A DNA stretch of 49,531 nucleotides from Faecalibacterium sp. UBA1819 (GTDB lineage Bacteria > Bacillota > Clostridia > Oscillospirales > Ruminococcaceae), in contig DCEX01000034.1 in NCBI GenBank assembly GCA_002315015.1, positions 1 to 49,531 on the forward strand. Direction: 5' to 3'. Positions 27,657 through 37,579 of this stretch are shown here, piece by piece (positions within the stretch are counted from its first letter, which is position 1; each line of letters starts with the position of its first letter). The position numbers and the translations under genes are program-made. Under the pieces are notes generated by a model. The model ran no database searches. It had not been told where the DNA came from and was given only the letters and a program-made list of their open reading frames with translations.

Positions 27657-28403
27657 TTACAGCACCTTGCTCAAAAAATCTTTTAAGCGCGGATGCGTGG
27701 GATTTTCAAAAAATTCCTGCGGTGCCTTTTCTTCGCACACTACACCGCCGTCAATGAATACAACACGGTTGGCCACCTCACGGGCGAAGCCCATTTCGTG
27801 CGTCACCACCACCATGGTCATGCCGTCCTGTGCCAGCTGTTTCATAACATCCAGCACTTCACGCACCATTTCGGGGTCGAGTGCGCTGGTCGGCTCGTCG
27901 AACAGCATCACGTCAGGCTGCATGGCAAGCGCACGCGCAATGGCAACGCGCTGCTGCTGTCCGCCGGAAAGCTGCACCGGATAAGCGCTTCCTCTGTCGC
28001 CCAAGCCGACTCGTGTCAGCAGCTCGTGCGCCAATTTCTCCGCGTCCTCTTTTTTCATGCCCTTCACACGGATGGGCGCAGCCGTCACGTTATCCAATAC
28101 CGTCATGTTGGCAAACAGATTAAACTGTTGGAACACCATGCCGATTTTGCAGCGCATCTTGTCAATATTGGTGCTTTTTGAGGTGATATCCACACCTTCA
28201 AAAATGATGTGTCCGCCGGTGGGAACCTCCAGCAGGTTTAAGCAGCGCAAAAAGGTGGATTTACCCGAGCCGGAAGGCCCGATAACCGCCACAACATCGC
28301 CCTTGCGAATCTGCATGTCAATGCCTTTGAGCACCTCAACATGCTTAAAATGCTTTTCCAAGCCGTTTACTTCAATCAGCAATTCACGATTATCTTGTGA
28401 CAC
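27657..28403 (-). CDS. glnQ: Polar amino-acid ABC transporter ATPase
   Basis: A 248-residue importer ATPase of the GlnQ/HisP group. Walker [10 protein letters not shown] (~38-46), Q-loop VFQQFNLF, signature [15 protein letters not shown], Walker [15 protein letters not shown] and H-loop VTHEMGF are all intact. The start is GTG 28403 behind AAGGAGG; it overlaps the permease gene by 14 bp. It is third in the leftward operon binding protein - permease - ATPase. Confidence 0.92.
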
Positions 28404-29112
28404 TGCGGCTCATCCTCCTTTCAAACCACGCCACCAGCTTCGACAGCGGGAACACAACAACGAAATACATCAGCGCAGCGATGATATACGGCTCAATGAA
28501 GATATAAGCATTCGATGCAACCGCACTTGCCTGGAACATCACGTCCACAATGCCCACCATGCTCAAAACGCTGGTTTCTTTAATAATGGTTACAAACTCG
28601 TTGCAAAGCGCGGGCAAAATATTGCGCACCGCCTGCGGCAAAATCACAAAGCGCATGGCCTTCCAGTGGCTCATGCCAAGGCAGCGAGCCGCCTCCATCT
28701 GTCCGTGCGGCACTGCGCCGATGCCCGAGCGAATCACCTCGCTCAAATAAGCGCCCGAGTTGAGCGCAACAGCCAGCATACCCCACATCATACGGGTTGC
28801 GGTCGGGTCGGGCAGCACCAGCTTTGCGGTGGTAGCCGTGTAGTAAATCACAAATACCTGTACAATCAGCGGGGTGGCACGCAGCACTTCTACATAAGCG
28901 GTGCAAATAAACCGCACCACCGCTTTCAGCACCTTTACCACAGCATGGTCTCGGCTATTGTGCGTCAGCATTCTGCCGGACGCCACCAAAAGCCCCAGCA
29001 CAATACCTAAAACCACAGCCACCAACGCCACCAGCAGGGTGTTTTTCAGGCCTTCCAGATAAAACCCGTTGTAACGCTCCCAAATTTTGAGCATTCTTTC
29101 CAATGAAATCAT
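28390..29112 (-). CDS. Polar amino-acid ABC transporter permease
   Basis: A 240-residue HisM/GlnP-type permease with five or six membrane segments and the EAA loop [29 protein letters not shown] that contacts the ATPase. AAAGGAG precedes ATG 29112. One permease gene implies a homodimer. It lies 285 bp after the binding-protein gene, with hairpins between. Confidence 0.92.
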
Positions 29113-29165
29113 GTTTTACTCCTTTTTTGCAGACAAAAAAGATATCTTATTTCGTCTCATCCTTT

Positions 29166-29230
29166 CCGGCAGCACTTGCCGGACAAACACACACGATTCG
29201 GCGCAGGCTGATTTTCCTGCGCCGAATCGT
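29166..29230 (-). other. Intercistronic stem-loops between binding protein and permease genes
   Basis: A perfect 15-bp stem ACGATTCGGCGCAGG (29193-29207) / 29216-29230 with an 8-base loop, plus CCGGCA-GCACT-TGCCGG at 29166-29182. Neither ends in a clean T-run on the minus strand. Such hairpins often stabilise the binding-protein message and lower read-through, giving excess binding protein. Confidence 0.6.
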
Positions 29231-29397
29231 TTTGCGGCCAGCGTGCGGTTCTTTTTGGTCCCCCTTGCTTCCCGCCTTTTGGCCGCCGCCGTTCCATTCA
29301 AGTTTTATCTCTAACCGACGCCATCCCACCGGCGCCGTTCTTTCCCGTTTGTATTCACGCTTTTCAGCGTCCCCAGATCCTTATTTTGTGCGGTGTC

Positions 29398-30312
29398 TTA
29401 CAGCACACCCATTTCAGAAGCTTTTGCCTGTGCTTCGTCAAACCATGTCTGAATGCTGCCGTCCTCGGTGTATGCTGCAATCTTCTCGTTGACAAAGTCC
29501 AGCAAGTCGGTATTGCCCTTCATCACAGCAATCGCGTTTCCGTTAGCAGCGGGGTCGGTCTCCACGGGCACCTTGCCAATGGCCAAGCCCTCGGTGGTCT
29601 CCATGTACTGCTTTGCGCTCACTTCGTCAATCAGCACAGCCGCGCAAGCGCCTGTTTTCAGCTCTGCAATGCACTGCGGGAATTTCGGCAGCAGCAGCGC
29701 CTCGCTGTCTGCAAACTGCTCGGCCATCAGCGTTTGCTGAATAGCGCCCTTTTGGGTTGCCAGAGTCTGTCCGGCCAGGCTCTCTTTGGTTGCATATTTG
29801 TCAACATTTTCTGCCAAAACCAGCATACATTGGCCGCCGCCATAGTACAGGTCGCTCATGTCAACGCTTTCCTTACGCTCAGGCGTCGGGGACAGGCCCG
29901 CAATTGCCATGTCGGCGTTGCCCGCCTGAACTTCGGTCACGACGCTGTTAAAGTCAATATTCTGAATCTCCAGCTCCACGCCCAGCTCGTCGGCCAGCGC
30001 CTGAGCCAGCTTTGCGTCCAAGCCCACAATGTTGCCGCTCTCGTCTTGGAACTCAAAGGGAGGATAAGTCGCTTCTGTCGTCACAATCAGCTTGCCGCGT
30101 GCCTTGATGGCCTCCACAGTGTGTTCAGCGGGGTCGCCGCCTACAACGCCGGCTGCACTTCCCGAAGCCGCCGCAGATGCGGAAGGGGCAGCGGGTGTAG
30201 AAGCCGCTGTGCTCTCAGCCGCGCCGGAAGCGGTGCTGCTGCTTGCGCCGGAACATGCCGTCAAGCCGATGGCCAGTGTCAAGGCCGTCAAAAATGCCGT
30301 TACCTTTTTCAT
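29398..30312 (-). CDS. Polar amino-acid binding lipoprotein
   Basis: A 304-residue SBP_bac_3-type protein. The signal peptide ends at lipobox LTAC with Cys at residue 20, followed by a Ser/Ala/Thr-rich linker to about 60. The ligand-binding fold has IVTTEATYPPFEFQDESGNIVGLDAKLAQAL at the start and NADMAIAGLSPTPERKESVDMS in the middle, where the Asp and Arg normally grip the amino-acid carboxylate and amino groups. The start at 30312 follows GGAGAG; an in-frame upstream extension to 30408 covers the promoter. Ligand probably a polar or sulfur amino acid, not resolved. Confidence 0.92.
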   Translation of the reverse strand: MKKVTAFLTALTLAIGLTACSGASSSTASGAAESTAASTPAAPSASAAASGSAAGVVGGDPAEHTVEAIKARGKLIVTTEATYPPFEFQDESGNIVGLDAKLAQALADELGVELEIQNIDFNSVVTEVQAGNADMAIAGLSPTPERKESVDMSDLYYGGGQCMLVLAENVDKYATKESLAGQTLATQKGAIQQTLMAEQFADSEALLLPKFPQCIAELKTGACAAVLIDEVSAKQYMETTEGLAIGKVPVETDPAANGNAIAVMKGNTDLLDFVNEKIAAYTEDGSIQTWFDEAQAKASEMGVL

Positions 30313-30379
30313 GTTGTGCTCTCTCCTTTTTTCTTTGTGCCCGCGGTTAAGCGGAGCGTTCACTCTTTTCATTGCCCTC

Positions 30380-30408
30380 ATTATACACGCATATTTATTC
30401 ATCGTCAA
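30380..30408 (-). promoter_or_regulatory. Promoter of the amino-acid importer operon
   Basis: On the minus strand TTGACG (30408-30403), 17-bp spacer, TATAAT (30385-30380). Predicted start about 30373, 60 bp before the ATG. Confidence 0.72.
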
Positions 30409-30867: not shown

Positions 30868-33800
30868 TTGAAACGTACCCTCGCCATTTTTATCAGCCTA
30901 TGCATGGCCTTCACCGGGCTTTCGCCTGCGGTCGCTTTCGCACAGGAAAGCGGCGGCTTGTCGATTAACATGCCGCCGGCTGATGTCACCGTCACCGAAT
31001 CAGACACCCGTCCTGCGTCGGAAAGTACGTCGGACGGTTTTCTGGACGACAATTTTTTGGATGACGACTTCTTCAACGGCGGCTTTTCCGACACTGCGGA
31101 AAGCACTTCGCAGTCTGGGCCCGAAAGCACATCGGAAAGCGTGCCGGAAAGCAGCTCTCAAAGCAGCTCAGAAAGTGTGCCCGTAAGTGAAAGCACCTCC
31201 CAGAGCACATCGGAAAGCACCCCGAAACCGGAGGCTCAGAGCGTTTCTTCCTCCGAATCTTCTTCGGAAACACAAGAGCCGGAAGAGGAGCCGGAAATCC
31301 CCACGGATGCCGAGCACGGCGCTGTGCGCGTTGTGATTTCGTCGGCCCTTGCGCTGAAAAAGGACACGCTTTTTCAAGTTTATGTAAACGGCCCCACCAA
31401 GTACCACACCACTGTTACCCTGCCGGCTACCGGCGGCAGTGAAATTCCCACCGTAACGGCCTATGCGCCGCAGCTTGTCCCCGGCCATTATACACTGGTG
31501 GTCGTTGCCGACGGCTTTGCCCGTTACACCCAGGAATTCACTGTGGATACGCTTCTGTATGAGGTTCAGCTGTTCACCGGTGTGCTTGGCGGCTACAACT
31601 ACACCAGCGGCAGCAAACACCCCGGCCTTTTGCTGATTGGTGACGTCAACGGCGACGGCGCCGTTGATTCTGCCGACGTGCAGACACAGGTCAATCAGCT
31701 GGAGTCGGGCAGCCAAACAGCCTCCGGCGATTTGAACGGCGACGGCGTAGTAGACTTGGCCGATCTTCAGTATCTTTCCATTGGCTACCAAAACACCTTG
31801 GATACACAAGCTTATCTTTCCACGTTTGTTCCCTCGTCCTCTGCCACAGCCTCCACGGGCAGTGATACGCGCGTATCCTCCGGCAGCATCGAGAGCTTAA
31901 CCAGTGATAAAGCTTCCGAAGGCGTTGTGCTGAAAACCGCCACCGGTTCCAACATTTCCGAAGCAACCCCCATTACGCTGGATTTCAATTTTGAAGCCTC
32001 TGCCAAGATGGAAGGTTTGCTGCTGGATGCTCCCGTTGGCGTCGACAACGCTATCACACAGGCCAGCATCTTTGTGAATTACGAAAAGGAAGACGGTACC
32101 GTTGAGGTCATGGAAATCCCCTACCGCAACGGCGGAATCGACCTGTTTGCCGCGTTCCGCTCCGGCGGCAAAGTAACTGCCCAGCCGGATGGCACGCTCT
32201 CCATCAGCTTCGGCGGCCAAATCGCCGTCAAGAAAGTGACGTTTGTCATTCAGGGCACCCAAAAGCCCACCAATCTTGCCGAAATCTCCAAAGTGGAATT
32301 TCTCAACGATATGGAAAGCCGCATTCCCCAGCCGGAAATGAACATCCCGGAAGGGGTCAGCGCACAGGCGGGCAACAAATCCTTCACCGTCACTTGGAAG
32401 CCCAGCGTCAACGTGACCGGCTATGAAGTATCGGTTTCTGTGAACGGACAGGAGGAAACCTTCCGCACAGCGCTTACCAGCTTGACCGTCACCACCTTCG
32501 GCGGCAAAAAGCTTGTCAACAACACCGAGTACACCGTGCGTGTACAGTCTTTGAACGGCACTTGGAAGAGCGGATACAGCGACCCTGTCACCGTTACCCC
32601 CAAACCCGAAGGCAAGCCTCCTGCACCCGACAATTTAACTTTGACCGGTTTGTTCGGACGCATTGACGCCAAGTGGAAAAACATGGAGGATACGGATACC
32701 TACACCGTATACTACCGTCAAAAAGGCACCGAAACCTATACCCCGATTTCCGGTCTGACCACCAACAGCTGCACCATTCCCGATCTCTTGAGCAATACGG
32801 TGTATGAAGTTTATGTCACCGGCACCAATGATTTCGGCGAAGGCCCGGCCAGCGCCGTGAACGAAGCCTCCACCGCAAACGCTACACCCGCGCAGCTGCC
32901 CGCCTTCCAGCTGATTAACTTCGCTACCGGAACGGGCGCACTGAGCGCACATATCACCTCGGCAGCTCATGCTGCCGGCACGATGGAAAACAGCCCGCTG
33001 GACAGCGGCGACAGCGCTCTTGGTGTGTTTGATAACGATTATGCGTCCTACTATCGTCTGAACGACTGGGATGACGGCGCAACCTACCCCGACAACGGCG
33101 GTATCCGCGTCACACTGGACGATACTTACAACATTGGTATGATTTCTCTGGCACAGCCCGAGGATTCCGGCTACTATGGACGTGTTCGCGTTTATGCCAA
33201 GGACGAGTCCGGCAAAGAGCAGCAGGTTTCCAATGTCACCATTGGTCAGCGAACCGATGAAAACGGACGCAAATATTATCTGATTAAAATTCCCGGCGGT
33301 ATCAGCACTCAGGAACTTCGTGTGTGCGTCGGCCATCCCTACTGGATGCCGTCTGTCACCATTGCAGAAATGCGTCTGCACACTTATGACAGCTTGGAAG
33401 ATGACATCTTCGCCTTGTACGCCGACGATTTGCACATTACCTTGAACGGCAATGTAAACGAAGAAACCATCAACGCACTGCAAACCCGTTTGGATACTCC
33501 CGATGCGGGCGGTGCTTACCACCCCGACCGTGCTCTGCTGCAAAAAGAGCTGGACAATGCACGCGGCTTGCTGTCGCAAACTTCTTTGGGCGGTTCCATT
33601 GTCATCAATAATGCCATGGTTCCCTCTCGCGACAACGGTCTGGGCATTACAGGTCTCAACGCATGGCAGCCGCTGGGTGTCTCGGCAGCCGCCGGCGAAA
33701 TCGTGGTGCTCTATGTCGGCAGCGAAGGCTCTGCCACAGGCGACAGCACTCCGCTGGAGCTGGTTGCTGCCCAGCAGTACGCCGAGCACAACACCGTTTC

Positions 33801-36288
33801 CAAGGTGGTGGGCAGCCTGAAAATTGGCCGCAATGAGCTCACCATTCCCCAGCTGCAAACCATCGCAGCCGAACAAGGCGGCGCACTTTATGTCCAGTAC
33901 GCCTCCAACGCCAAATATGACGCATCCAAACAGTATGTTGTGCGTGTAGACGGCGGCACTGTGTTCCCTGTCTTGAACGTTCGCGGCATGACAGATGAAA
34001 CTCAGCGCAACGAGGCAATTACCGCCTACGTCCAGCAGCTGGAAGCTTATGTTTCCTCCCTGCAAGCATCGCACGAAAGCGAGCACGCCGGTTCTTCTTT
34101 CACATCTGTCAGCAGCCATGAGTATGACGAGAAAACCTGCATTTTGAACACGACAGACATCGTGATGGATCACATGATGTTCTCCGTTCCCGCAAGCCAA
34201 ATCTTGAAGGGTCTCAGCGGCGGCAGCACGCAAAAAGCCCAGCAGCTCGCTTCCAGCATCAATGCGATGGAACAAGCCATGGATCTGTTCTATCAGCACA
34301 AAGGCTTAACCACACTCTCCGGTGCGGGCGATAAAAACGACACGCCTTGGCAGCAGCTGAATATCCGTTATCAGCGTATGTTTGCCGGTGCGTTTATGTA
34401 CGCTGCCGGAAACCACATCGGCATTGAGTGGGGTTCTGTGCCCGGCCTTGCAGCAGGACAGCCCGTCGTGCTGGATGAAGCCGGAAAGTATGTTTCGGGC
34501 GATTTGTTCGGCTGGGGCATTGCACACGAAATCGGCCACGAAATCAACCAAAGCGCTTATGCTGTCGCAGAGGTCACCAACAACTATTTTGCCCAGCTGG
34601 CTACCTATGCAAACGGTGCAACCCGCTTTGGTTACGATGCAGTTTATGACAAAGTAACCAGCGGTACCACCGGACCTTCTTCCGATGTATTTACACAGCT
34701 TGCGCTTTACTGGCAGCTGCATCTGGCGTATGACAAGGACTATGAGTACGTCATGTATGACGATTACCAAACCCTTTTGGACAGCCGTTTCTTCGCGCGT
34801 GTCGACACTTATGCACGCGACACCTCCAAAGCGCCCGGCTCGGTTGCTTTGAAGCTCACGAACGACACCGACCAAAACCTGATGCGTCTGGCCAGTGCCG
34901 CTGCCGAGAAGAATCTCACCGATTTCTTCACCCGCTGGGGTATGACGCCGAATGCCGAAACGAAAACCTATATGGAGCAGTTCCCGGCAGAAGCCCGCAC
35001 ATTGTATTACATCAATGATGCCGCACGCGACTACATTTTTGCACACAGTGCAGAGGAAAGCACGCTCACGGTCAGCGGCAAGGATGTTCTTTCCGATGCC
35101 ACCAGCGCTTCCATTGGCGCGCAGCCGAACCAAGTGGTATTCCAATTTGCTTTGGAAAGCGGTGTAGATGCCTCCACCATCGCAGGCTATGAAATTACGC
35201 GCGTCACCTATGAAAACGGCCAGCCGCAGCGTCAGGTGGTCGGTTACACCACTCAAACCACCTTTACCGATACGGTTTCTTCCATGAACAACCGCACCAT
35301 CGTTTACGAAGTTGCGGCAGTGGATCAGTTCATGAACCGTTCCAACGTCAAAGCCCTGCCCGCCTTGAAGATTGCTCACGACGGCGCATATGGCAAAGAC
35401 AACTGGACGCTGGAGACCAACCTGGTTTCCGAGCAGGATACCACTCCCCCGGCAGACCATGAAGATCCCTGTGCACCGGAAACCGTTTCCGCGATTTATA
35501 CCATCGCAGATAACGATGCTTCCACCACCTACACCGGAACCACCGAAGAAAAAGATGCCGTCATCACCGTGGACTTCCATGAAACACTGGAAGTAACCGC
35601 CATGAAGTATACGGTCAGCGGCGGTGTGGGCAGCGTCAGCTGCACGGTGCAGGTCAGCACCAACGGCACCGACTGGAAAGATATTTATACCGGTACTCTG
35701 CCCGAGGGCGATGAAACCGCGGTTGTCTATTTCCCGAATGAGGACGGCGACTGGGTGAAAACGTATGATGCTTCTCAGCTGCGCCTCACCATTCACAATC
35801 CTGCCGGCGGCACCGTTACGCTGTCCGAGCTGGATATCCTCGGCCCCACAGGCGATAATGTCGAACTGAATGTACAAGGCATTGGCGTACTGAAAAACGA
35901 CTATGTCTATGAGGCTGAAACCGGCGAAAAGATTCCGGCCGGTTCCATTGTACTCACCGGAACTTACAAAGGAAACCCTGCGTATAACGTTGTCATGCCG
36001 TTTGACATGGAAGGAAACGTTGTTTCCGCCAAGGACAGCGAGGGCAACTATCACGCCAGCCAAATCATTTTGGCCGATGTGCCCGAGCATGGCGAACTGG
36101 GTGAAACCTCCGACGGTACTTGGGTATATTGGATTGAGCCGGGCAACGACTTTACAATGCCTGAGCAAATCCGCGTCGAGCTGTATCGCGTCGATTCAGC
36201 CGACACCAACGCAGGTCAGCGTCTTGTCAGCGACACACTGCCTGTCAGCGTTCCTGCCGAATTACCTTCTATCACCCTTGAGCCGTAA
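30868..36288 (+). CDS. Secreted M60-type metallopeptidase with dockerin, FN3 and F5/8-type domains
   Basis: A 1,806-residue secreted protein. Order: signal peptide (1-28); Ser/Glu/Asp-rich linker (30-145); beta domain; type I dockerin (about 255-308) with the two repeats DVNGDGAVDSADV and DLNGDGVVDLADL; a beta sandwich; two FN3 domains (490-672); a discoidin-like domain (685-845); the M60 peptidase core with H1220-E1221, H1224 and E1235 (HEIGHE...AE, the HExxHx(8-24)E zinc motif); an FN3-like region; a second F5/8-type domain (1530-1670); and a C-terminal domain without wall or membrane anchor. M60-like peptidases cleave mucin-type glycoproteins. The start is TTG 30868 behind AAGGAAG, giving an exact signal peptide. 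It is next to a cohesin-like gene. Confidence 0.88.
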   Translation: MKRTLAIFISLCMAFTGLSPAVAFAQESGGLSINMPPADVTVTESDTRPASESTSDGFLDDNFLDDDFFNGGFSDTAESTSQSGPESTSESVPESSSQSSSESVPVSESTSQSTSESTPKPEAQSVSSSESSSETQEPEEEPEIPTDAEHGAVRVVISSALALKKDTLFQVYVNGPTKYHTTVTLPATGGSEIPTVTAYAPQLVPGHYTLVVVADGFARYTQEFTVDTLLYEVQLFTGVLGGYNYTSGSKHPGLLLIGDVNGDGAVDSADVQTQVNQLESGSQTASGDLNGDGVVDLADLQYLSIGYQNTLDTQAYLSTFVPSSSATASTGSDTRVSSGSIESLTSDKASEGVVLKTATGSNISEATPITLDFNFEASAKMEGLLLDAPVGVDNAITQASIFVNYEKEDGTVEVMEIPYRNGGIDLFAAFRSGGKVTAQPDGTLSISFGGQIAVKKVTFVIQGTQKPTNLAEISKVEFLNDMESRIPQPEMNIPEGVSAQAGNKSFTVTWKPSVNVTGYEVSVSVNGQEETFRTALTSLTVTTFGGKKLVNNTEYTVRVQSLNGTWKSGYSDPVTVTPKPEGKPPAPDNLTLTGLFGRIDAKWKNMEDTDTYTVYYRQKGTETYTPISGLTTNSCTIPDLLSNTVYEVYVTGTNDFGEGPASAVNEASTANATPAQLPAFQLINFATGTGALSAHITSAAHAAGTMENSPLDSGDSALGVFDNDYASYYRLNDWDDGATYPDNGGIRVTLDDTYNIGMISLAQPEDSGYYGRVRVYAKDESGKEQQVSNVTIGQRTDENGRKYYLIKIPGGISTQELRVCVGHPYWMPSVTIAEMRLHTYDSLEDDIFALYADDLHITLNGNVNEETINALQTRLDTPDAGGAYHPDRALLQKELDNARGLLSQTSLGGSIVINNAMVPSRDNGLGITGLNAWQPLGVSAAAGEIVVLYVGSEGSATGDSTPLELVAAQQYAEHNTVSKVVGSLKIGRNELTIPQLQTIAAEQGGALYVQYASNAKYDASKQYVVRVDGGTVFPVLNVRGMTDETQRNEAITAYVQQLEAYVSSLQASHESEHAGSSFTSVSSHEYDEKTCILNTTDIVMDHMMFSVPASQILKGLSGGSTQKAQQLASSINAMEQAMDLFYQHKGLTTLSGAGDKNDTPWQQLNIRYQRMFAGAFMYAAGNHIGIEWGSVPGLAAGQPVVLDEAGKYVSGDLFGWGIAHEIGHEINQSAYAVAEVTNNYFAQLATYANGATRFGYDAVYDKVTSGTTGPSSDVFTQLALYWQLHLAYDKDYEYVMYDDYQTLLDSRFFARVDTYARDTSKAPGSVALKLTNDTDQNLMRLASAAAEKNLTDFFTRWGMTPNAETKTYMEQFPAEARTLYYINDAARDYIFAHSAEESTLTVSGKDVLSDATSASIGAQPNQVVFQFALESGVDASTIAGYEITRVTYENGQPQRQVVGYTTQTTFTDTVSSMNNRTIVYEVAAVDQFMNRSNVKALPALKIAHDGAYGKDNWTLETNLVSEQDTTPPADHEDPCAPETVSAIYTIADNDASTTYTGTTEEKDAVITVDFHETLEVTAMKYTVSGGVGSVSCTVQVSTNGTDWKDIYTGTLPEGDETAVVYFPNEDGDWVKTYDASQLRLTIHNPAGGTVTLSELDILGPTGDNVELNVQGIGVLKNDYVYEAETGEKIPAGSIVLTGTYKGNPAYNVVMPFDMEGNVVSAKDSEGNYHASQIILADVPEHGELGETSDGTWVYWIEPGNDFTMPEQIRVELYRVDSADTNAGQRLVSDTLPVSVPAELPSITLEP

Positions 36289-36300
36289 GTAATCTTTTCC

Positions 36301-36343
36301 AAAGCGGTGCTCTGTTCAAGCCAAATGCGCAGAGCGCCGCTTT
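36301..36343 (+). other. Stem-loop between peptidase and cohesin-like genes
   Basis: AAAGCGGTGCTCTG (36301-36314) pairs with CAGAGCGCCGCTTT (36330-36343) with one G-T wobble. No T-run follows, so it may be a weak attenuator or processing site inside a two-gene operon. Confidence 0.55.
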
Positions 36344-36383
36344 GCGAAAATTGTTCTTTACAAAACAACGCAAGGAGAATCCT

Positions 36384-37505
36384 ATGAAAAAAATAATTGC
36401 CGGGCTTGTATGCGGGGCGGTGATGCTTGCGGGTTTCATTCCTGCGGCATTTGCCGTTTCGTCTGCAAGCGTGTCCATGCAGGCCACTTCCGACCAGGCG
36501 GCCACCACCTTAAATCTGTCCGATTCCGCTCAGGAGGTCACCGCTGTCAGCCTCAGCTTTCAAGTAAATGTAACCGCGGGCTCCTCTGAAAAAGCCAGCG
36601 TCTGGTTTGCCTTTGACAGCGGCTTGCCGGCCAATATTCAAGAGTATCGCTATAACGCCCAAACGGGCCGCTTAACGCTCTATTTGTCCGGTAAGAATGC
36701 TTTGTTTCAGCAAGACAGCACTTTGCTCGGCAGCATTAAAGCTTCCACGCAGGATGCAACAGGCTTAACGGTTTCCGTCCAGCCGATTTCCGATTCGCTG
36801 AAATTGGTTAATACCTCCAGCGAAGTAATGAATGCACCCGCCATTGATACCGGCAGCGTTGTACAGCTGGTTGTAGGGGAAGGCGGCGAAAACAACGCCG
36901 CAAAAGTTGACTTTACTGCATTGGCGAACGCCGTTGCCACGGCAGAGGCCAAAAACGCCGCAGAGTATACCACCGACAGCTGGAATGCGCTGCAAGCAGC
37001 GCTGCGCAGCGCAAAAGCCGTGCTGGCTGCGGCTGACTCCACGCAGGAAAGCGTCGATGCCGCCACCAACGCGCTGAACGCCGCAATTCAAGGGCTTGCA
37101 GCAGCCGGCGGAAGTTCGTCGGGCAACTCGTCCGGCGGCACCGGCACTGCGCCGACAACGCCGACCACACCGACGCCAGGCGGAGTCAACACGGTCACAA
37201 CTCCCGCTAACAATCCTGCTGGGGCAGCATCTTCTTCTGCCAATAAAAAGCCGGCCTCTTCCGGTTCTTCCTCCTCGGCTGCATCTTCTTCGGAGTCGAA
37301 GAGCGAAGCGCCTTCCAGCACATCTGCTTCTTCGTCGGCGCCCGCCAGCGAAAGCACGGCACCGGCACAAAGTGGGTCTAATGCAGAGGCGACACAGGCA
37401 CAGCCCACCGGAAATATTGCCAACACGATTATGATTGGCGTGATTATCCTCTTGGTGATTGCCATTATCGGCGTGGGAATTGCTATCGTGCGCAAACGCC
37501 GCTGA
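36384..37505 (+). CDS. Membrane-anchored cohesin-like protein with FIVAR domain
   Basis: A 373-residue surface protein. A signal peptide (1-24) precedes a beta-sandwich (about 28-165) with a cohesin-like pattern: VSMQATSDQAATTLNLSD, then SFQVNVTAGSSEKASVWFAFD and LTLYLSGKNALFQQDSTLLGSIKA. A three-helix FIVAR module follows (175-245: TALANAVATAEAKNAAEYTT...), then a Ser/Thr/Pro/Ala linker, and a C-terminal membrane helix (about 345-369) ending in VRKRR, which keeps the protein on the outside of the cell. AAGGAGA precedes ATG 36384. It lies 95 bp after the dockerin-bearing peptidase, so it is the likely docking partner. The cohesin call is by pattern and context and needs a profile search. Confidence 0.65.
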   Translation: MKKIIAGLVCGAVMLAGFIPAAFAVSSASVSMQATSDQAATTLNLSDSAQEVTAVSLSFQVNVTAGSSEKASVWFAFDSGLPANIQEYRYNAQTGRLTLYLSGKNALFQQDSTLLGSIKASTQDATGLTVSVQPISDSLKLVNTSSEVMNAPAIDTGSVVQLVVGEGGENNAAKVDFTALANAVATAEAKNAAEYTTDSWNALQAALRSAKAVLAAADSTQESVDAATNALNAAIQGLAAAGGSSSGNSSGGTGTAPTTPTTPTPGGVNTVTTPANNPAGAASSSANKKPASSGSSSSAASSSESKSEAPSSTSASSSAPASESTAPAQSGSNAEATQAQPTGNIANTIMIGVIILLVIAIIGVGIAIVRKRR

Positions 37506-37536: not shown

Positions 37537-37579
37537 AGGGCATTCCGCAAGCTCTAAAAGCTTGCGGAATGCCCTTTTT
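37537..37579. terminator. Bidirectional terminator
   Basis: AGGGCATTCCGCAAGCT (37537-37553) pairs perfectly with 37559-37575, then TTTT. It ends the cohesin-like gene and touches the end of the convergent XRE gene. Confidence 0.9.

Follow-up and report, generated by a model that had tools for sequence, protein, structure and literature searches.

The window analysed here, a stretch of 49,531 nucleotides covering positions 1 to 49,531 of contig DCEX01000034.1 of Faecalibacterium sp. UBA1819 (assembly GCA_002315015.1; 2.25 Mb, 36 contigs, 97.6% complete), holds two neighbouring forward-strand genes, at 30868..36288 and 36384..37505, which encode a secreted M60 peptidase with an internal dockerin and a membrane-anchored protein with a predicted cohesin fold. 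An earlier note, made from the letters alone, had placed this pair at 30868..37505, a placement that agrees with the open reading frames (ORFs), the TTG start and the ribosome site, and had suggested that the two products form a complex holding a mucin-cutting peptidase on the cell.

The peptidase, a gluzincin of 1806 residues, starts with the TTG at 30868, preceded by the ribosome site AAAGGAAG, and opens with a signal peptide at residues 1-25 (30868..30942; read by eye, ending in AVAFA with Q next). Its membership of M60 follows from a PF13402 profile match at residues 1096-1358 (34153..34941; 43.2 bits, cut-off 25.8) together with the HEXXH...E zinc motif HEIGHEINQSAYAVAE, and its relatives of solved structure in the PDB, 5kdj and 6xsz among them, belong to the M60 peptidases. 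Well ahead of the catalytic domain lies a type I dockerin with a duplicated calcium-binding loop at residues 258-303 (31639..31776), which scores 30.8 bits against PF00404 (Dockerin_1; cut-off 22.9), is matched at 9.4e-9 in the genome-wide search, and keeps its calcium ligands, with Asp as residue 1 and residue 12 of each loop in all 42 aligned relatives. Other domains are a fibronectin type III domain, the better-scoring of two, at residues 494-576 (32347..32595; PF00041), and an F5/8 type C (CBM32-like) domain at residues 1546-1623 (35503..35736; PF00754, 28.2 bits, at cut-off). The C-terminus has no hydrophobic stretch, membrane helix or LPxTG end, and the Pfam scan of the protein gave no S-layer homology (SLH) match.

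The partner gene begins 95 bases after the end of the peptidase gene and encodes 373 residues: a signal peptide (residues 1-24, 36384..36455, read by eye), a beta-domain of predicted cohesin fold (residues ~25-170, 36453..36893), a FIVAR domain (residues 177-238, 36912..37097; PF07554, 37.1 bits), a Ser-rich linker, and a C-terminal membrane helix (hydropathy 3.3 over 19 residues) with an RKRR tail, the two together at 37434..37502, without LPxTG. No catalytic domain was found in the partner by the Pfam scan. The two-repeat dockerin inside the peptidase, the lack of an anchor on that enzyme, and the signal peptide, FIVAR domain and membrane helix of the second protein had all been described in the earlier note and are borne out. 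FIVAR is no constant part of the partner design: of 19 partner proteins run against Pfam, three have it (window, G003, G268).

The earlier note had also called the second protein cohesin-like, which holds for the predicted fold and finds no support in the sequence. The predicted structure is a beta-sandwich of ~140 residues with the cohesin fold rather than another; the top 23 Foldseek rows are all cohesins, with TM scores of 0.45-0.60, and the structural matches include the cohesins of Clostridium perfringens and, among the top ones, those of OlpA and OlpC. Several results weigh against this identification. The structural match is moderate, the best TM of 0.60 coming at 4.4 A, and a distant relative matches more weakly (E 5.6e-4, TM 0.48), with GH20 enzymes among its top rows in the VIA comparison, which also shows other beta-sandwiches and covers only the families listed there. 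At the level of sequence, the partner has no PF00963 match at E<=1 in Pfam and none in NCBIfam, PF00963 matches none of nine homologues, and none of the four PDB profile matches at E<=10 is a cohesin. Profile-profile alignment with hhalign of 44 partner domains against ten PF00963 cohesins from related genomes, one of which (L059) was cut off its domain, gave a non-significant E of 0.0095 at a probability of 4%, compared with 0.22 and 0.62 for peptidase regions as controls and 4.6e-14 for the positive control, in which the cohesins were split in two. Since that result is not significant, the only direct evidence for a cohesin is the predicted fold, by which the partner domain is a cohesin, and a cryptic one by sequence.

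The pair is widely conserved. Among 396 genomes of the family, PF13402 occurs in 37 and the partner-domain profile in 34, all 34 of which carry M60; the partner domain sits 1.3-2.2 kb past the M60 domain and shares its contig and strand. That profile is blind to gene context, and its rows come from 7 of the 34 matching genomes, the other 27 having contributed none. In a sample of the order, the domain was found in 14 of 394 genomes, two of them family members already counted; each of the 12 outside the family has M60 and an adjoining partner domain. With G005 added, the total rises to 48 pairs, spread over 21 genera of five families, and the genes are adjacent in every one (48/48), even though the cohesin-fold domain has diverged to 12-16% identity. 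One genome, G596, holds two complete pairs (L132, L133).

A dockerin is present in all 45 peptidases with a readable N-terminus; as the profile used was built from 34 of those same peptidases, this count describes the set and does not test it independently. The Pfam model itself recognises the dockerin in seven of the eight readable peptidases scanned (window, G003, G004, G021, G028, G036 and G048, the last just below the Pfam cut-off) and does not match G035. Loss of the dockerin in G035, which has no PF00404 match at E<=0.01, was considered and ruled out, as the relatives' profile matches there at 56 bits. In G004 the frame is broken and the dockerin falls in its upstream part, that of G005 is on a separate contig taken as the same gene, and that of G712 is partial, at 23 bits. 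The count leaves aside G233, whose peptidase frame starts at a contig end, and G288 and G479, in which the N-terminal half is absent from the fetched stretch. Where the peptidase gene has a broken frame or lacks an N-terminal half that can be recognised (L064:4630-9914 in G004, L126 in G479 and L113 in G288), the cause is either faulty assembly or decay.

The five M60 proteins that lack a partner (in G148, G216 and G274, and two in G059) also lack a dockerin. Absence of the partner was judged by profile in the first three, the M60 of G274 lying on a 3.2 kb contig, and in G059 by a protein search, which matched FIVAR parts, and by the ORFs around the two M60 genes. These partnerless proteins belong to distant subfamilies, with ~20-24% identity or no alignment of the catalytic domain, so that the association of dockerin and partner is in part due to shared descent of one M60 lineage, a point that counts against the tether.

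What varies among the partners is the tail. A membrane helix ends 32 of the 48, among them that of G159, where it stands behind an LPQTG motif, and SLH domains occur in seven. In G233, the partner (L105:4218-4877) bears a C-terminal dockerin (28.5 bits) instead of an anchor and looks like an adaptor that would carry the peptidase into a larger complex. Tails could not be assessed where the partner reaches a contig end (G237, G300, G409) or the frame seems to run out (G479, G529); that of G288, membrane-like by eye, was left out of the count. Two partners, that of the second pair of G596 and that of G712, have no recognised anchor, which is less easily reconciled with a tether. A single type of domain joined to anchors that can be exchanged is what a tether looks like, and the two-part complex suggested earlier, in which the binding itself is inferred, is supported by the 48 conserved pairs and by the change of tail to SLH domains, a sortase motif or a second dockerin.

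The genome of the window contains a single dockerin (PF00404), the peptidase's own, a single copy of the partner domain by profile search, and no PF00963 cohesin in the genome-wide profile search; neither a multi-cohesin scaffoldin nor a set of dockerin enzymes was found there. With one dockerin and one cohesin-fold domain, the system of this genome is not a mucinolysome or a cellulosome, so that of the cellulosome-like use once proposed only a minimal form stands, without a multi-enzyme complex. The same economy recurs in the relatives: at E<=0.01, 31 of 39 M60 genomes have exactly one PF00404 match, two have none, three have two and three have 69-85, and exactly one match is found in 30 of the 36 M60 genomes with a partner, positions within each genome being those seen among the matches listed. 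The pair-bearing G159 and G233, with 85 and 80 dockerin matches, probably carry cellulosome-type systems.

Taken together, these observations are best explained, with a probability of about 0.87, by a dedicated one-enzyme, one-anchor cohesin-dockerin pair that would tether the M60 O-glycopeptidase to the cell. The enzyme would be exported without an anchor of its own, while the product of the next gene would present one cohesin-fold domain, with FIVAR, a Ser-rich stalk and the C-terminal helix fixing it to the membrane. The dockerin of the peptidase would dock onto that domain, presumably in a calcium-dependent manner as in known cohesin-dockerin pairs, and the enzyme, displayed at the surface, would cut an O-glycosylated host protein there and release glycopeptide products close to the cell, to its likely benefit. 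That the substrate is a mucin-type protein is suggested by the M60 family, by the solved relatives and by a GH101 enzyme in the same genome.

An alternative view is that the partner uses a cohesin-like beta-sandwich for adhesion or glycan binding at the surface, and would hold mucin near the peptidase and not bind the dockerin. Ig-like beta-sandwiches are common binding folds, FIVAR is present, and adhesin subdomains (UafA, ACE19) do appear in the Foldseek list of the partner domain; they enter it at rank 24, however, with TM 0.34 in their first rows as against 0.45-0.60 for the 23 cohesins above them, and an adhesin would leave the dockerin of the window genome without a recognisable partner, yet a dockerin is kept in every assessable peptidase. 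This view is therefore improbable. Still less likely is that the dockerin serves scaffoldin cohesins elsewhere, in the same cell or a neighbouring species, and that the downstream gene is co-inherited without being its receptor. The many dockerins of G159 and G233 and the dockerin on the G233 partner would suit such a role, but among 61 relatives the nine genomes with the pair all lack a PF00963 cohesin, and the strict adjacency of the two genes is at odds with it.

The least plausible explanation, and a very improbable one, is an operon of independent surface proteins that make no physical contact. It draws on a mirror-tree analysis of 42 pairs (without G233 and G712, by choice, and G237, G288, G300 and G479, whose partner was not extracted), which also counts against the tether: the partial correlation of the cohesin-fold domain with the dockerin is 0.37, compared with 0.47 for the region before the dockerin and 0.29 for that after it, and all five pairings tested reach the same permutation limit, so the coevolution signal is not specific to the dockerin. 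Against this, dockerin and cohesin fold are both kept wherever they can be assessed while the tails change, which would be unlikely without contact, and a tethering pair remains the favoured account.

Known systems resemble this pair in part. In Clostridium thermocellum, OlpA and OlpC (3ul4, 4dh2) each place a single cohesin on an anchored surface protein, and their cohesins are among the top structural matches of the partner domain; they are part of cellulosomes with many dockerin partners, unlike the window genome with its one dockerin. The cohesin (X82)/dockerin glycosidase complexes of C. perfringens (2jh2, 2o4e, 2vo8, 2w1n) are, as here, non-cellulosomal assemblies on host-glycan enzymes, and the X82 cohesins are likewise structural matches, but there enzyme joins enzyme, whereas here the cohesin fold sits on an anchored protein without a catalytic Pfam domain and the dockerin on the peptidase. 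The peptidase itself shares the catalytic domain and HEXXH motif with C. perfringens ZmpA/ZmpC and F5/8-type M60 entries (6xsx, 6xsz, 5kdj) and with 5kd5. All five cohesin proteins of C. perfringens also carry a glycoside hydrolase domain, according to the text of a survey that describes cohesin-dockerin assembly on host-glycan enzymes both in that species and in the Limousia mucinolysome (PMC12997984, Gut Microbes 2026). The Limousia system, as presented there, has 3-6 scaffoldins in each genome, together with as many as 12 cohesins and as many as 22 dockerin CAZymes; it is similar in that gut Bacillota bind host-glycan enzymes, peptidases included, by dockerins to cohesins with one anchoring scaffoldin, and different in that here one enzyme meets one cohesin-fold domain invisible to Pfam, usually with a membrane helix or SLH tail. 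As the first step of that survey, in its published description, is the joint occurrence of Pfam cohesin and dockerin models in a genome, the present domain would not be findable in that way. M60 is not mentioned in the main text of that paper. Within the M60-like family, a published table lists Dockerin_1 in 2 of 415 proteins (PMC3267712), so that the dockerin of this peptidase is a rarity by that table, and the main text of the same paper does not contain the word cohesin. The literature searched, in which subscription journals are scarcely covered, yielded no account of an M60 peptidase with a dockerin whose partner is an anchored cohesin, and as far as these searches go, the pair is a new, minimal form of cohesin-dockerin assembly.

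Between the two genes lies a stem-loop on the forward strand (36295..36350; RNA fold -36.3 kcal/mol, z -5.0) that is absent from the list of terminator-like elements, and the pair of G003 also has a strong intergenic stem-loop (L071:12391-12449, z -6.6); such elements might set the ratio of peptidase to partner product. Intergenic gaps measured in other pairs are at most 92 bases, or the genes overlap. Downstream of the partner gene, a hairpin of very high stability that has T runs on each strand (37537..37575), terminator-like both ways, is probably a terminator shared with a convergent DUF2975 gene. Directly 5' of the peptidase gene, at 27657-30408, stands a divergent amino-acid ABC transporter (solute-binding family 3, permease and ATPase), of which at least the ATPase and permease adjoin the M60 pair in G003 as well. 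A phage search with the peptidase as query returned zero matches.

Two other large FIVAR proteins are encoded in the window genome. One is a GH101 endo-alpha-N-acetylgalactosaminidase (L072:136-6063, G000:C26) that has three FIVAR repeats and, following a QTGD motif, a hydrophobic tail, a gene fitting a mucin-using lifestyle; the other is a beta-helix protein, possibly a lacto-N-biosidase (L073:3551-7522, minus strand, G000:C36), which likewise has three FIVAR repeats and ends in a tail of similar kind. As FIVAR and tail are fused into the chain of each of these two, the cohesin-fold protein seems to provide through contact what they have built in.

In a wider sense, the pairs probably represent an unnoticed cohesin family, invisible to the profiles tried, that works in private one-to-one pairs with M60 glycopeptidases in five or more families of a single order of gut-type bacteria, its anchor freely exchanged; a domain of the G233 type, having gained its own dockerin, would link the peptidase to a larger complex. 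This would name a cohesin family that has been missed by those profiles and would assign a function to solitary dockerins in genomes without a recognisable cohesin; if true, surveys based on Pfam co-occurrence would miss such pairs wherever a genome has no other cohesin. The 48 natural pairs, two of them in one genome, could serve as protein-tethering tools. For the bacteria themselves, cohesin-dockerin assembly would extend from multi-enzyme complexes to a single host-glycoprotein peptidase on the surface, the pair may be similar to the simplest starting point for the growth of multi-enzyme complexes, and commensals would have a means to keep mucin-cutting activity on their own surface.
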